A stretch of 35,245 nt of DNA from a virus. The DNA lies in the IMG/VR virus record IMGVR_UViG_3300010885_023942, positions 1-35,245 of that record; one strand, given 5' to 3'. This document shows, one piece after another, positions 28,633-35,131 of this stretch. A program made the translations under genes and the position numbers. The notes under the pieces are model-generated. The model saw only the letters and a program-made list of their open reading frames with translations, was not told the DNA's origin and ran no database searches. Each line of letters starts with the position of its first letter. Positions within the stretch are counted from its first letter, which is position 1.

Positions 28633-29499
28633 TTACTCCGCTGCCTGGGCTGATAACTCCGCATGCTTGGCATCAAACTCCGGCGCAATCGCTTCCCAAT
28701 CCGCATCCGGATAGGCTTCGCGAAGGTGGTTCAGCATCTCGACGTTGACGGCCGATGCGATGGCGGCTTTCGCCTCGCTGGTGTCGTCGGTCTCCGGATC
28801 GGCCTGGGGCGCCGTGTCGGGAATATCTGGCAGCTCCAGCGCCGGAGCCTTGGCGGGCGTCACGTCGCGCATATCGCTGATGGCCTGAATGTCCTCGGCC
28901 TCATCGCGGATCTGGATGCCCTTGAGTGCATCGGCGCCGCCGTCCTTACCCGCAAATCCCAGAGCGCGAGCTTTCAACATCCGCTTTGGGAAGCGGAACC
29001 ATGCGCTGTCGTTGGGCTTCGTCTTGCCGTAGGCCGTTTTGGTGGGTGCCTGATCCCAGAGACCGGCCTTTTTCGCGTCGGCGACGGAATAGCTGCCCTC
29101 GATCTTCTCTCCACCGGGGCGTGTCAGCTCGCAATGCGCGGTCCAGTCGTCGGACATTTCCTTTCCGGTAAACCATTCCCGGATCTTGAAGCCGCGTGCC
29201 CACAGAATGCCGGGAACGGCCTCGCTGTGTGCCGTGATCCGGCCGTTGATCATGGCCAACAATTGAATGGACTGCATGGGCGGAACGCCAATCTCCATGC
29301 CCTGCATGATGATCATGGTACCGCGCGCCAGCGTCGCGTCGGCATCCTCGGTCTGCGCTGTGTCGCCGTAGCCAGTCTTGAGCGGCTTCAACATGCCGGA
29401 CTTGTAGGCCATCGTGGCCAGCCGATAGACATCCTCGATTGACTGCGGAACGATGGGGTTCAGCGCGCCGCCAGCTCGAAGGGGGGCAACGTTGCTCAT
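28633..29499 (-). CDS. recT: RecT-family single-strand annealing protein
   Basis: The 288-residue product has the RecT core: IEDVYRLATMAYKSGML, an ATLARGTMIIMQGMEIGVPP motif with MQSIQLLAMINGR, a strand pair around GYSVADAKKAGLW, then WFRFPKRMLKARALGFAGKD and GGADALKGI. These proteins coat and anneal single strands during phage recombination, often with an exonuclease. No exonuclease gene is evident nearby. The C-terminal 90 residues are a Pro/Asp linker plus a helical tail. The TGATG-like junction with the upstream gene at 29499 couples the two. Confidence 0.88.
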   Translation of the reverse strand: MSNVAPLRAGGALNPIVPQSIEDVYRLATMAYKSGMLKPLKTGYGDTAQTEDADATLARGTMIIMQGMEIGVPPMQSIQLLAMINGRITAHSEAVPGILWARGFKIREWFTGKEMSDDWTAHCELTRPGGEKIEGSYSVADAKKAGLWDQAPTKTAYGKTKPNDSAWFRFPKRMLKARALGFAGKDGGADALKGIQIRDEAEDIQAISDMRDVTPAKAPALELPDIPDTAPQADPETDDTSEAKAAIASAVNVEMLNHLREAYPDADWEAIAPEFDAKHAELSAQAAE

Positions 29500-30485
29500 C
29501 AGACAGCCACCTTCTCTTCGAAGCTACGGACACCCGGCACCGTGGCCCCGGCGCGAGCTTGTGCAAACGCCACCTTCTCCACAGCAGCAATCACGTCAGC
29601 ATGGTCTTTGACGGCTGCGAGCGCTGCGGCGTAGTCGGTCAGCTCGTACTTGGTCAGCGTGCGCAGACTGGCTTTCTTGCCCCGCTGTCCGCCGGCCTGA
29701 ATGTGAACCGTGGCCGGCGCAACGAACACGGGCGCCTCGACGACGGGTGGCGGCGGGGGCGGCTCATTGGCCCGTTCGGCAGCAGCCTTGGCCATCGCTT
29801 CTGCATGGGCCTTGGCGGCTTCCTCTTGCTGCCGGCGGTGCTCGGCCATCCGCTTTTCATTCTCGACGCGGGCGGCTTCGGCAGCGGCCTTGCGCGCCTT
29901 TTCATCCTCAGCGGCTAGGTAGGCACTGAGCTTGCCACGGATCGTGTCCGCGTCGGCCTTGGCGCCATCGACGAGCGGCTTCCATTCGGCGTTGATCGCC
30001 TTCTGTGCGTCGAGATGAGGGCGCACCCGTGTATCGCGCTCCGCGTCGGCCTTCTTGCTCAGCTCCAACAGCCGGGCACGGTGGTTCGCGGCCATGTCGG
30101 CCGTGACCTTGTCGGCGATCGGCGTCTTGGCAAGCCAGCCCATGGCCTGCGACCGCGCATCGGCGATTTCCTCGGCCAGCGACAGATCACCCGAGTTGTG
30201 CCCGATCGCCACGTCGCCCGGCCAAGCGCCCGTCTCGAACGCCTGCTTAGCGGCTTCCTTCGGAACGGGGTTCTTGGCGCACCACGTCCACACGCCGAGT
30301 GGATCGACCATATCGCCAGCCACGCGGCACACGAGGTGCCCGTCTTTGCGCCAGATCGCAACCGGCTGATATGGGCCATCCTTGCCCTTGCGCATTTTGT
30401 AATAACCGGAATGCGGAATGTCGGCATGCAATGCCACGTCATTGCCCGCGAGCGCATCGCGCCAGTTCTGAAATTCGTCAGTCAT
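29499..30485 (-). CDS. RecT-partner coiled-coil protein
   Basis: GAGGGTGTGCA precedes ATG 30485. The 328-residue product has three parts: an N-terminal domain of about 95 residues (GYYKMRKGKDGPYQPVAIWR, then WTWCAKNPVPKEAAKQAFET), a long charged coiled coil (about 100-230, KARKAAAEAARVENEKRMAE) with an EPPPPPPVVEAP linker, and a C-terminal domain ending TVPGVRSFEEKVAV. A C-terminal domain with this kind of ending follows or precedes RecT genes in many alphaproteobacterial phages. A single-strand DNA or recombination-mediator role is inferred; no enzyme motif is visible. Confidence 0.75.
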   Translation of the reverse strand: MTDEFQNWRDALAGNDVALHADIPHSGYYKMRKGKDGPYQPVAIWRKDGHLVCRVAGDMVDPLGVWTWCAKNPVPKEAAKQAFETGAWPGDVAIGHNSGDLSLAEEIADARSQAMGWLAKTPIADKVTADMAANHRARLLELSKKADAERDTRVRPHLDAQKAINAEWKPLVDGAKADADTIRGKLSAYLAAEDEKARKAAAEAARVENEKRMAEHRRQQEEAAKAHAEAMAKAAAERANEPPPPPPVVEAPVFVAPATVHIQAGGQRGKKASLRTLTKYELTDYAAALAAVKDHADVIAAVEKVAFAQARAGATVPGVRSFEEKVAV

Positions 30486-31847: not shown

Positions 31848-32032
31848 TCCGTTCGTTCTTCGGTCCCGTATTCGATTGCATGGATGCGCGCGTATTCGTC
31901 CGCCAGCTCATTGATCCAATCCTGCAGGGTGTCGAGGCGGATCGTGTTGTTGGCCAATTCCCAATCGTCTCTGAACCGCACGTCTCCCTCGCCGGCAGCG
32001 GCGCTGTAGCGTAGATCGCCGTAGCGTTTCAT
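31808..32032 (-). CDS. Small acidic hypothetical protein downstream of integrase
   Basis: ATG 32032 (GGGGAG upstream) overlaps the int stop (ATGA at 32029-32032). The 74-residue acidic product (MKRYGDLRYSAAAGEGDVRF, then TLQDWINELADEYARIHAIE) is helical and ends with a perfect tandem IANTIANT repeat that coincides with the 12-base DNA repeat. No family recognised. Confidence 0.65.
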   Translation of the reverse strand: MKRYGDLRYSAAAGEGDVRFRDDWELANNTIRLDTLQDWINELADEYARIHAIEYGTEERTEIANTIANTPRSE

Positions 32033-33039
32033 CTCCCCGCCTCCCATTTGAGTACGGCGCTTGCCGCAAGCCTTTGCTGATTGACGGCTCGTGCGTAGTG
32101 TTCGACCATCTGCAGCGTCTGGCCGGTGATCGCAGAGACTTCCGCCGTGCTGGCCCCCGCCTCGAGCAGGAACACCACCGCCGACTTCCTGAGCCCGTGG
32201 AACACGAGGCCCTTGATGCAGTCCGGCCGCTGGTCCTGCCACGTCGCCCGGAAGCCCGCTTTCGTCCATGGTCGACCTGACGAGTTGGTCAGGATCGTCA
32301 CCGCAACCTTGGGAATGGCGTCAAGCACGGCGCGGAGTTCGCGGTGAAGCGGGATCAGAAGGTGCTTGCCCGTCTTTTCCTGCTTCACCGCGACAGCGCC
32401 CCCGCTGATCGCGTCCCACCGCATAGCCAGCACATCGCCCTGCCGCTGGCCCGTGTAGAGCGCGATTTCCATGGCCTGCCGAAGGTCAGGCCGAAGATCG
32501 GTGCGTGCCGCCTCGATGGCAGTCCACGACCATGGTTGATAGGCCTCGCCACCGCGCAGCATCTTGACTTCGCGGCAGGGATTGTCCCGCCGCCATCCCC
32601 GCGGCACCGACCAACCCAGCATGCTCGACAAGCAGCGCATCAGGTTGTTGGCAGCGGCCGGCGTTCCGGCGTAGGTGTCGCGCAGCGCAATGACATGCTT
32701 GGGCTCGATACCTTTGACTTGTAGCCGCCCCCAAGCGGTATCGACGCGACTGCAATAGCGGCTCCATTCTGTCTGCGTCTTGGCTCCGAGCGCGGCCCAT
32801 TCCGGGCTTGCCTGCCATGTCTCGATGAGTGCCGTCATGGTGTCCGTCAGCTTGCGTTCGGTGGGGAGTTGCATGAGCCTTGCGTACTCTGACCAGAACC
32901 TCGGATCGTCCGGGTCCGGGAGCCGCAGGCGTTCACTCGCTTGCTCGGTCCCGCGATGGCGCTGCAGGTAGGTGTAGGACTTGCCCAGCCGGTTTTTGAC
33001 GCTGAACACGTGCGGCGGCAGCTTGCGCGACGGCGACAT
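32029..33039 (-). CDS. int: Tyrosine site-specific integrase
   Basis: The 336-residue product opens [20 protein letters not shown], the typical start of a phage integrase group with a small arm-binding domain. It has a core-binding region and a catalytic domain with Arg199 (YTGQRQGDVLAMRW), Lys222 (QEKTGKHLLIPL), HGLRK (His281, Arg284), GQTLQMVEHYAR with Tyr315 as nucleophile. At the position usually held by the second His (as in TGH) there is Gln307. It would integrate the phage at attP, likely the repeat-bearing gap just downstream. Its start overlaps the excisionase-like gene by 107 bases. Confidence 0.92.
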   Translation of the reverse strand: MSPSRKLPPHVFSVKNRLGKSYTYLQRHRGTEQASERLRLPDPDDPRFWSEYARLMQLPTERKLTDTMTALIETWQASPEWAALGAKTQTEWSRYCSRVDTAWGRLQVKGIEPKHVIALRDTYAGTPAAANNLMRCLSSMLGWSVPRGWRRDNPCREVKMLRGGEAYQPWSWTAIEAARTDLRPDLRQAMEIALYTGQRQGDVLAMRWDAISGGAVAVKQEKTGKHLLIPLHRELRAVLDAIPKVAVTILTNSSGRPWTKAGFRATWQDQRPDCIKGLVFHGLRKSAVVFLLEAGASTAEVSAITGQTLQMVEHYARAVNQQRLAASAVLKWEAGR

Positions 33040-33253
33040 GGGCTACTCCTGCAAGGTACGGGTCTTGCTGCTCGTCGGTGGTTTGAACGGCCGACACCAT
33101 GCCCCGCAGCCTCGCGTCGACATCGTCCCAGCGCCAGCGCTTGGCCTCGCCGATGGTTACCGGGTCGGGGAGGATGCCGCGCCGCACGAGATGATCAATC
33201 GCGCCTTCTGCGAGATCGAGCTTGTCGGCGAGAGACTTGCGGGAAAGGTACAT
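32933..33253 (-). CDS. AlpA/MerR-like excisionase or integrase regulator
   Basis: The 106-residue product begins [20 protein letters not shown], then [20 protein letters not shown] with [12 protein letters not shown]. This is the winged helix-turn-helix of AlpA-like proteins, which act as phage excisionases or activators of integrase. The remaining 50 residues overlap the start of int out of frame and have a shadow-like Ala/Arg/Gln composition, so the functional protein may be just the first 60 residues. It lies ten bases after the repeat-protein gene. Confidence 0.75.
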
Positions 33254-33263
33254 GGGGCACCTG

Positions 33264-33947
33264 CTATTCAGTCGCCGCGATCATTTTCTCAACGAGTCCG
33301 ACTGCGGACTGCTGAAGATGAGACGTTGTCGATTTAAGAGCGGCCCTGCCGGCGGCCCTGGCGGCGTCCCAGGCGGCGTCCCAGGCGGCGGCCCCGGCGG
33401 CGTCCCTGGCGGCGTCCCAGGCGGCGTCCATGGCGGCGTCCCTGGCGGCGTTCCTGGCGGCGGCCCAGGCGGCGTCCATGGCGGCGTCCATGGCGGCGCT
33501 TGCATCACGCCGCACAGCCATCAGCGTCGGCATCAGAGATGGGCATTGAGCAAAGTCTGTGATCTCTGGCAGCGCTTCGAGCAAAGCGGCCTGCGTTTCC
33601 AGTTTCGCCAACCGCAGCCATGCCGGCGTGTACACGCGGATCAGCCAATCTGCGGCCATGGTCGCGCGGCGCTGTTCGAGTGCCCTCGATCCCCGCGTAT
33701 TGATCAGCTTGGGGATCAGGGGCAGCAGCAGCAGCGTCCGATCTGAATCCGGTAGCCCATCGTTCCAGGAGCGCATGAAGGCTGCGATGACCGGGCACGC
33801 GCACTGCGGATGATCGCTCCAAGGCTCGCCGGCGATGTAGGCAACAGCTTCCATGGCGCAGAGACCATCGTTGAATGATTTATGCGCGCCGTGCTTGAGC
33901 GCCGTTATCTCGGCGAGCCTTTCGGGAATGATCGTTGCCGTTTGCAT
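33264..33947 (-). CDS. Ala/Trp-Asp repeat protein, first gene of the leftward immunity operon
   Basis: ATG 33947 follows AGGAGG at four bases; an in-frame GTG at 33971 lies upstream. The 227-residue product has a conserved N-terminal part ([20 protein letters not shown], then [12 protein letters not shown]) that resembles a widespread family of unknown function in phages and bacteria. A tail of [15 protein letters not shown]-type repeats follows (about residues 148-203), encoded by short GC-rich tandem repeats at 33339-33506. It is the first gene under the leftward operator/promoter, so it is an immediate early gene. Confidence 0.7.
33339..33506. repeat. GC-rich tandem repeats coding DAAW/DAAM/DAAR units
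   Basis: On the plus strand the block reads as many copies of GGCGGCGTCC(A/C) and close variants of 9 to 12 bases. In the minus-strand gene they encode alternating DAAM, DAAW and DAAR units that would form an amphipathic helical rod. Copy number could change by slippage. Confidence 0.75.
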
Positions 33948-34045
33948 GCTGCCTCCTGAAATCCTGATCACCGAGGCAGCGGGCTAGGGAGAAGGGCTAG
34001 CCTGTCTGAGGAAGGGGTGTCCGTGCCGCCCCGGTGATGACTGTG

Positions 34046-34075
34046 AAGCTACTTTACAAATCGTGAAGTCGTCAA
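34046..34075 (-). promoter_or_regulatory. Leftward promoter PL (putative)
   Basis: On the minus strand TTGACG (34075-34070) is followed 17 to 18 bases later by a weak -10 (GTAGCT or TAGCTT). The spacer is filled by operator site 34052-34068. The first gene starts 100 bases further on (33947). It is designed like the rightward promoter: the same -35 hexamer with an operator directly after it. Confidence 0.55.
34052..34068. promoter_or_regulatory. Operator-like site 1 (within PL)
   Basis: CTTTACAAATCGTGAAG is a near-perfect 17-base dyad of CTTTAC and CTTCAC half-sites around a five-base centre. It shares TTACA-NNN-CGTGAA with sites at 34084-34100 (minus orientation) and 34586-34602. It lies between the -35 and -10 of PL, so repressor binding would block RNA polymerase. 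Confidence 0.65.
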
Positions 34076-34083
34076 CAAGGAAA

Positions 34084-34100
34084 ATTCACGAAGTGTAAGT
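34084..34100. promoter_or_regulatory. Operator-like site 2 (upstream of PL)
   Basis: Read on the minus strand it is ACTTACACTTCGTGAAT, again TTACA-NNN-CGTGAA. Its centre is 32 bases, about three helical turns, from site 1, allowing cooperative binding on one face of the DNA. Confidence 0.6.
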
Positions 34101-34126
34101 TCGATACGCAAGCCGTTGTCCCGGCA

Positions 34127-34142
34127 AGCAAAAAATTTTGCT
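34127..34142. repeat. AT-rich inverted repeat between the repressor and PL
   Basis: AGCAAAA (34127-34133) and TTTTGCT (34136-34142) pair around two A bases. It lies downstream of the repressor stop; on the minus strand a run of six T falls inside it, so it may be a weak terminator for the repressor transcript. Confidence 0.35.
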
Positions 34143-34215
34143 CTCCCTGTGGAAAACTCTAGCGTGTGCGGAGCCTGCCCGTTAACGTTGAGGGCGAGCG
34201 TGATTGGGGAAGTCT

Positions 34216-34515
34216 CTAGGGGGCGGAACCGTTGTGTGCGTCGAGGCCGCGTATAAGTTCCCACGTCTGGTGTCGCAGGCCCGCCGGGTCGCCGCGATAG
34301 ATCCAGTCCAGAGTTATATCGTAGGCGTCGCACAACTTGTGCGCATGGCCCACGCTGATCACCCGTTTCCCGCGCTCGTACTGGTTGTACGCGCTGGTGT
34401 TGATCGCCGCTTTTTCTGCGAAGGCCTGTTGCTGAACGCCCCACACTCTGCGTGTGAGCTGCAACCGATAGCCTATGCCATCGGCCGAACGGTCGTGAAG
34501 AAGCTCGTTCGCCAT
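34216..34515 (-). CDS. XRE-family repressor (CI-like)
   Basis: The 99-residue product is a single helix-turn-helix domain: DGIGYRLQLTRRVWGVQQQA, then INTSAYNQYERGKRVISVGH and a DAYDITLDWIYRGDP segment typical of short phage/plasmid XRE regulators. There is no C-terminal self-cleavage domain, so induction is unlikely to follow the RecA-cleaved lambda path unless another factor helps. It is divergent from the Cro-like gene and lies between two operator-bearing promoters. GAGG is close before the ATG. Confidence 0.88.
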   Translation of the reverse strand: MANELLHDRSADGIGYRLQLTRRVWGVQQQAFAEKAAINTSAYNQYERGKRVISVGHAHKLCDAYDITLDWIYRGDPAGLRHQTWELIRGLDAHNGSAP

Positions 34516-34577
34516 ACCTCAGCTTTTCGCACGTCGAACTTTCAAACGCTATCATCAACATGCTGTGGACCTCCGTG

Positions 34578-34606
34578 TTGACGCAGCTTACAAAACGTGA
34601 AATGAT
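34578..34606 (+). promoter_or_regulatory. Rightward promoter PR (putative)
   Basis: TTGACG (34578-34583) and AATGAT (34601-34606) are 17 bases apart, with operator site 34586-34602 filling the spacer. The expected start point, about seven bases after the -10, falls on or next to the ATG at 34613, so the Cro-like message may have little or no leader. Confidence 0.6.
34586..34602. promoter_or_regulatory. Operator-like site 3 (within PR)
   Basis: GCTTACAAAACGTGAAA has the same TTACA-NNN-CGTGAA pattern as sites 1 and 2. It overlaps the PR spacer and the edge of its -10, so the repressor or Cro-like protein would shut off rightward transcription here. Confidence 0.65.
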
Positions 34607-34612
34607 TTGGCT

Positions 34613-34915
34613 ATGATGAAAGTGAAGCTCGTTCGCAACATCGATGACTTTGTGAAGGCCATGGGCGGCACGGGAGCGTGTGCGCGATGGCTGGAGGTCG
34701 GTGACGCCTACGTCAGCAACATGCTGGCGCGCGGCTACCTACCCGGCGGGTTTCACATGCAAGCCATGCTCGAAATGAAGCGGCGCGGGATCAAGGTCGA
34801 TCCGGCGTTCTTCGAGCTAAAGGGCGATGACGCCGAGCTTTTCAAGAAATTGGAGGTTCGCACTCGCCGCCCTTTGGCCCGCCGCCGAAGGACTGAGCAA
34901 AGGCCGGCAGCATAG
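34613..34915 (+). CDS. Cro-like regulator (carph-isopro type)
   Basis: The 100-residue product begins MMKVKLVRNIDDFVKAMGGT, then GACARWLEVGDAYVSNMLAR with GYLPGGFHMQ. The order, a GGT-A-A-L turn then SNM-RG-(I/L)P-G, matches short Cro-like regulators of alphaproteobacterial phages. A C-terminal basic tail (RTRRPLARRRRTEQRPAA) follows. It is the first gene of the rightward transcript and opposes the repressor at the shared operators. ATG 34613 or 34616 are both possible; no ribosome site is seen. Confidence 0.8.
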   Translation: MMKVKLVRNIDDFVKAMGGTGACARWLEVGDAYVSNMLARGYLPGGFHMQAMLEMKRRGIKVDPAFFELKGDDAELFKKLEVRTRRPLARRRRTEQRPAA

Positions 34916-35131
34916 CAATTCAGTTCACCGAACCCGGGGAATCACCGGGCGAGGCGTGGCGTCCGACTAAGCAAGAGAGGGGTGATCGGTTACCGGGTTC
35001 GGCCCCTTTCGGGGGGGACCATAGCTACCGCAAATCATCCCGACCACGCCGCCTTTGTACCCCGTAGCGTTCCGTGCGTGTTACCCGGCCTCGCTGCCGG
35101 CGGATGATATGCGTCCGGTCCTCCAGGTGAA
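34916..35131. other. Gene-free segment right of cro
   Basis: No convincing gene is present on either strand. A 42-residue plus frame from GTG 34983 and an Arg-rich minus frame that is open to the edge (35025-35245) both look like shadows of GC-rich structured DNA. The structured element 34925-35020 occupies the left half. Confidence 0.45.
34925..35020 (+). ncRNA. Structured RNA element candidate after the Cro-like gene
   Basis: CCGAACCCGG (34928-34937) pairs with CCGGGTTCGG (34993-35002), and nested inside ATCACC (34941-34946) pairs with GGTGAT (34981-34986), closing a loop of 34 bases. Directly after the outer stem CCCC-TTTC-GGGG (35003-35014) forms a third hairpin that could stack on it. 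The element lies in the leader or gap between cro and whatever follows rightward. A terminator, a nut-like site, or a small RNA are all possible. Confidence 0.4.

Follow-up and report, generated by a model that had tools for sequence, protein, structure and literature searches.

In phages lambda, P22 and 434, the immunity region places the repressor gene between the diverging promoters PL and PR, and cro is the first gene of the PR transcript. The leaderless message of lambda is that of cI made from PRM. Among alphaproteobacteria, Rhizobium phage 16-3 is a temperate phage with repressor operators, as in the case described below, its C repressor being larger and its operators of a different type. 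Single small helix-turn-helix (HTH) domains that read short dyads near a promoter are also found in the controller (C) proteins of restriction-modification systems, such as C.AhdI, C.BclI and C.Csp231I, and small XRE regulators occur in alphaproteobacteria and their phages, as with the Caulobacter and phiCbK factors RtrA/B, CdxA/B and TgrL (PMC10688885), for which the accessible part of the source reports many host genes as targets and neither a Cro partner nor a PL/PR layout. A search of the open-licence literature for the carph-isopro domain or for repressor-Cro-operator coevolution returned nothing equivalent to what we describe.

Here we analyse a stretch of 35,245 nucleotides (the window), which corresponds to positions 1 to 35,245 of the IMG/VR virus record IMGVR_UViG_3300010885_023942. 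We read its right-hand part as the immunity region of a temperate tailed phage, where a small repressor bound at three operators, O1-O3, would shut PL and PR and a Cro-like antagonist would read the same sites, and we put the probability of this reading at roughly 0.88. As in lambda, P22 and 434, the repressor gene, rep, lies between diverging promoters and a cro-like gene comes first under PR; as in lambda, PL leads to xis/int and recombination genes, in lambda's own leftward order. The operators overlap the core promoters in the lambda-type manner, O1 and O3 lying between -35 and -10 boxes, the repressor and the Cro-like protein apparently read common operators, and the HTH fold of rep matches those of P22 c2 and 434 Cro. 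The repressor differs from that of lambda in having 99 residues and no self-cleaving C-terminal domain, PL carries two operators and PR one where lambda has three and three, the PL operators of this type stand 31 bp apart on either side of the -35 box with letters unrelated to lambda's, and it is cro, the reverse of the lambda case, that is probably leaderless. Since we looked for three operators per promoter and a cleavable repressor and found neither, the system is not lambda-type in the strict sense; judged from its layout and its relatives, it is a compact and widespread variant of the lambda-type switch that probably works like CI/Cro. The nearest solved structures to rep, by both sequence and fold, are those of the C proteins, from which it differs in its pairing with a divergent Cro-like gene and in its company: the neighbours of rep that were examined are phage genes, and no restriction-modification genes were noticed among them.

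Operators, promoters and genes of the window

The initial annotation had placed three matching sites in this region, and all of its coordinates are correct (Table 1). The 35,245-base record holds exactly three copies of the shared motif TTACANNNCGTGAA (TTACA-NNN-CGTGAA), all of them within the immunity region, with no further match at one mismatch and next-best matches, at two mismatches, at chance level over the whole record; the rest of the genome is thus not equally rich in the pattern. Among 2000 dinucleotide-preserving shuffles, 3 yielded as many copies with all 11 letters in common inside the 642-base immunity region, a null that leaves the conservation in relatives out of account. Each operator combines a TTCACG half with a poorer TTTACA or CTTACA half, and the 17-base dyad symmetry ascribed to all three sites holds for O1, a good dyad alone with 12 of 16 arm positions self-complementary, but not for O2 (8/16) and O3 (6/16), which individually are weak palindromes. 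The TTGACG box said to stand immediately before the operator in both promoters is found there, and O1 and O2 are indeed 32 bases, or about three turns, apart from centre to centre. A promoter for rep itself was not found.

Table 1. Coordinates of operators, promoter elements, genes and leader in the window
Feature	Position	Strand	Sequence	Remarks
O1	34052-34068	+	CTTTACAAATCGTGAAG	PL-proximal operator, between PL -35 and -10; place conserved in 57 loci
O2	34084-34100	read on -	ACTTACACTTCGTGAAT	PL-distal operator, just upstream of PL -35
O3	34586-34602	+	GCTTACAAAACGTGAAA	PR operator, between PR -35 and -10; counterpart in 54/57 loci
PL -35	34070-34075	-	TTGACG	One base before O1
PL -10	34046-34051	-	TAGCTT	Putative; family tendency T-A-n-n-n-T directly after operator
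PR -35	34578-34583	+	TTGACG	Two bases before O3
PR -10	34601-34606	+	AATGAT	Putative; 17-nt spacer
rep	34216..34515	-		99-aa HTH (XRE/HTH_3) repressor without C-terminal peptidase domain; Pfam HTH_3 1.7e-9; PHROG repressor families
cro-like gene	34613..34915	+		100 aa; window protein below every family cut-off
First PL gene	33264..33947	-		227 aa, unknown function; PHROG 8332/3416
Excisionase-like gene	32933-33253	-		PL operon (32029..33253); weak match
Tyrosine integrase	32029-33039	-		PL operon (32029..33253)
Exonuclease-like gene	29499-30485	-		Further down the leftward genes (28633..30485)
RecT-like annealing protein gene	28633-29499	-		Further down the leftward genes
PL transcript leader	33948..34040	-	ATCACCGGGGCGGC / GCTGCCTCGGTGAT	Long stem

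With 38 bits, rep scores above the gathering cut-off of Pfam HTH_3 (23), and with 36 bits it stays below the curated cut-off of 80 for the RstR family (NF041951). Its AlphaFold model (pLDDT 91) is all-helical, a five-helix HTH with the recognition helix at residues 40-47 being followed by one C-terminal helix, and structure comparison gives P22 c2, 434 Cro and C.AhdI as the closest folds. A self-cleaving S24 C-terminal domain was not found in its 99 residues, which have HTH matches only. Homologues of the Cro-like protein match the YdaS, P22_Cro and carph-isopro models; those of the related loci L008 and L004 pass NF046037 (carph-isopro), and that of L008 passes YdaS as well. L008 also shares the exonuclease-like and RecT-like proteins, both at about 78% identity.

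Two further repeats were seen in the window. Repeated GGCGGCGTCC-like units lie at 33340-33500 on the minus strand, within the 227-aa gene downstream of PL, and nested inverted repeats, CGAACCCGG/CCGGGTTCG and ATCACC/GGTGAT, occupy positions 34921-35030 behind cro; the latter look similar to the PL leader motif and may act as a terminator or as a processing signal.

Layout of related loci

Relatives were obtained by tblastn, through the RecT gene and with small profiles; direct searches of viral contigs with the repressor or the Cro-like protein of the window gave no relative, a DNA search of phage records gave none, and a plasmid search gave distant XRE genes only. In every one of the first loci, read by eye, two dyads flank the -35 box of a promoter that lies downstream of rep, in letters specific to each phage. 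A fixed search, written after this by-eye set, was then applied to further loci with spacings left open from 20 to 60. With these 41 spacings tried, the best dyad pair fell at a spacing of 30-33 in 30 of the first 45 loci, and in 50 held-out loci, which had not been used to see the pattern, 26.6 best pairs fell at 30-33 against 4.9 expected. About half of the held-out loci reached the minimum p of a 60-shuffle null, and most of the distant XRE genes failed.

The resulting set comprises 57 loci where PL carries two operators 30-33 bp apart (30 bp in 16, 31 in 28, 32 in 11 and 33 in 2; mean 31.0, mode 31), with the -35 box between them. A TTG[ACT] -35 box begins 6-8 nt before the start of the proximal 17-mer in 54 of them, the bases next to the proximal operator tend toward a -10 box of the form T-A-n-n-n-T, and most loci have T-rich DNA after the distal operator. 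On the far side of rep, the rep-cro gap holds a site matching the PL operators of the same phage in 54 of the 57, a place that the operator models of other phages fit equally well only 6% of the time, and in nearly all relatives a TTG box stands 1-3 nt before this PR operator. A divergent Cro-like gene is present in 56 loci. The claim of two promoters of identical design, with the -35 box of PL and that of PR each directly followed by an operator, thereby extends to relatives with other letters.

Operator letters differ widely between phages and are consistent within each. Identity of letters was considered as a test of relatives and rejected, as TTACANNNCGTGAA occurred in no other locus fetched at that stage; it is the layout and not the letters that is conserved, and the proposed scan of relatives for the same pattern succeeds as architecture but not as identical letters. 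At least 56 other phages or prophages share this arrangement of three sites, with the operators and both proteins altered in concert. Spontaneous production as siphophages is reported for two family members, OP596612 and OP596613 (PMC10127595), which shows that phages with such an immunity region are temperate and functional.

Individual members show features of their own. EBPR podovirus 2 (L006) has an extra operator-like site, ATCCACAGATGATGGAT, at 1540-1560, about 290 nt upstream of the repressor start and inside its cro-like gene. Another member, with TTCAAG operators, lies in a record titled as a Deltaproteobacteria MAG (L011), so the switch may extend beyond alphaproteobacteria or the contig may be misbinned. 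The PL leader of the window can form a 14-bp stem between ATCACCGGGGCGGC and GCTGCCTCGGTGAT that adjoins the Shine-Dalgarno sequence, or alternatively pair GCTGCCTC with GAGGCAGC, the latter containing the Shine-Dalgarno; a comparable stem in other letters is present in L008, L033, L036, L040 and L004. The folding z-score of the window leader is only -1.0, and an Rfam search gave no match. A universal 5' hairpin, which seemed general by eye, was rejected as a family-wide trait because strong folding (z < -2) was found in 39% of loci only, against 14% of control stretches.

Covariation of operator bases with repressor and Cro-like protein

The operators were located without any protein information, and their similarity tracks that of the repressors (Mantel r 0.37 for the HTH part, p 0.001, 57 loci), a correlation that shared descent alone could explain. 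As some loci are closely related to each other, individual columns were tested on 50 non-redundant loci obtained with a 75% identity cut. Of all repressor columns, residue 51 accounts best for operator base -3 (z 11.4, against 4.0 for the next column): in 31 of 31 non-redundant loci with Arg or Lys at this residue, C is the majority base at -3, while the small residues Gly, Ala and Ser mostly accompany A, as does Phe in 2 of 3 loci, and Asn, Gln and Thr are found with mixed T/C. These side-chain groups were chosen after seeing the data, and the classes other than Arg/Lys are small and mixed. Base -5 is G in the three loci where residue 45 is Arg or Lys, and base -4 is A throughout.

Joint changes of base -3 and residue 51 were counted in independent pairs on trees built without the HTH columns and came to 8:0 and 9:0, with 2 unchanged in each case. 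In a formal pair test the supported branches were too few to decide, and it was replaced by pairs on the best tree; because short proteins give weak trees, the counts refer to the best trees whether their branches are supported or not. In leave-one-out prediction, residue 51 gives the correct base in 51 of 57 loci and in 16 of the 18 with a base other than C, against 38 and 6 from the nearest relative. By eye, we align residue 51 with Asn55 of lambda CI, which reads operator position 6, presumably at the same distance from the operator centre as base -3 of O1-O3.

The Cro-like protein gives signals as well, with z of 7.7 and 8.8, the strongest columns being located within its recognition helix and immediately behind it: column 33 (R40 in the window) tracks base -3 (pairs 7:0), and column 29 (N36 in the window) tracks base -5 (pairs 5:0). 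R51 of rep is thus predicted to read operator base -3, and N36 and R40 of the Cro-like protein are predicted to read bases -5 and -3, respectively. The covariation of operator letters with the DNA-reading residues of both proteins lends support to the idea that the sites define a repressor specificity, and it makes it very probable that repressor and Cro-like protein read the same sites, as lambda CI and Cro do. To judge from these columns, sequence alone reveals part of the protein-to-DNA code.

Proposed working of the switch and its significance

We propose that the 99-residue repressor occupies O1, O2 and O3 as a dimer. Because O1 and O3 fill the -35/-10 spacers of PL and PR, bound repressor would exclude RNA polymerase from both early promoters, silencing the leftward int/xis/recombination genes under PL and cro to the right under PR. 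On the same face of the DNA, some three helical turns further upstream than O1 and beyond the -35 box, comes O2, so two dimers probably act jointly at PL, where O2 would strengthen repression; we infer this joint action from the spacing, as neither the family matches nor the AlphaFold model of rep makes a C-terminal oligomerization domain visible. Should repression fail, PR would make the Cro-like protein, which would bind the same sites and most likely antagonize or reset repression. Its message is probably translated leaderless, given that the cro ATG follows the PR -10 by 7 nt in the window (34601-34615) and that the distance is kept in the family, with 46 of 57 loci placing the ATG 9-12 nt past the operator. 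As the repressor is devoid of the self-cleaving domain of CI, RecA-dependent induction in the manner of lambda is not expected.

The constant spacing at PL bears on how O2 acts. It is possible, if rather doubtful, that the pair of sites about 31 bp apart represents two independent operators, with O2 blocking an upstream contact of RNA polymerase through its alpha-subunit and an UP element: the T-rich stretch beyond the distal operator could be UP-like, and a repressor with no visible oligomerization domain favours independence. Steric blocking alone, however, needs no helical phase, and the spacing is held in phase at 30-33 bp, although a fixed promoter register could account for part of this constancy. 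We consider it unlikely that only one phage protein, Rep or the Cro-like protein, reads O1-O3 while the covariation of the other hitch-hikes on shared descent. The two genes are adjacent and co-inherited, so that each may borrow the other's signal, and at matching positions the Cro signals are about as strong as the Rep signals; on a joint tree, however, both proteins change one-way with the operator (9:0 and 7:0), and the best column in each lies at or just after the recognition helix, in favour of a common set of sites.

Slightly less likely still, in our view, is that rep is an early regulator of one operon and no lysogeny repressor, immunity being set elsewhere. Small XRE proteins have many roles, no lysogen is known for the window phage, and a metagenomic virus record may be incomplete, but the position of rep between PL with int/xis/recombination genes and PR with cro is the lambda layout, and genes related to rep are found in demonstrated temperate phages (PMC10127595). 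As to a chance likeness of three A+T-rich promoter-region words, the weak dyad symmetry of two of the sites gives it hardly any credit against the rarity of the arrangement in shuffles and its recurrence in relatives with different letters, and the held-out loci have already refuted it.

Returning to the two-protein immunity switch, we think on balance that the loci probably represent a large undescribed family of minimal phage switches where Rep residue 51 and Cro residue 40 read the same base and specificity shifts in step. An old question of lambdoid immunity is how two proteins that share one operator set can change specificity without breaking the switch, and in this family repressor, Cro and operators come as matched natural sets, at least 57 in number, whose fixed layout makes them recognizable in metagenomes with no need of experiments. 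The covariation yields predictions from residue to base, and hence of which phages should share immunity, and the family could serve as a source of small orthogonal repressor-promoter pairs. If our proposal is true, the immunity groups of unseen phages would be predictable from protein sequence alone.
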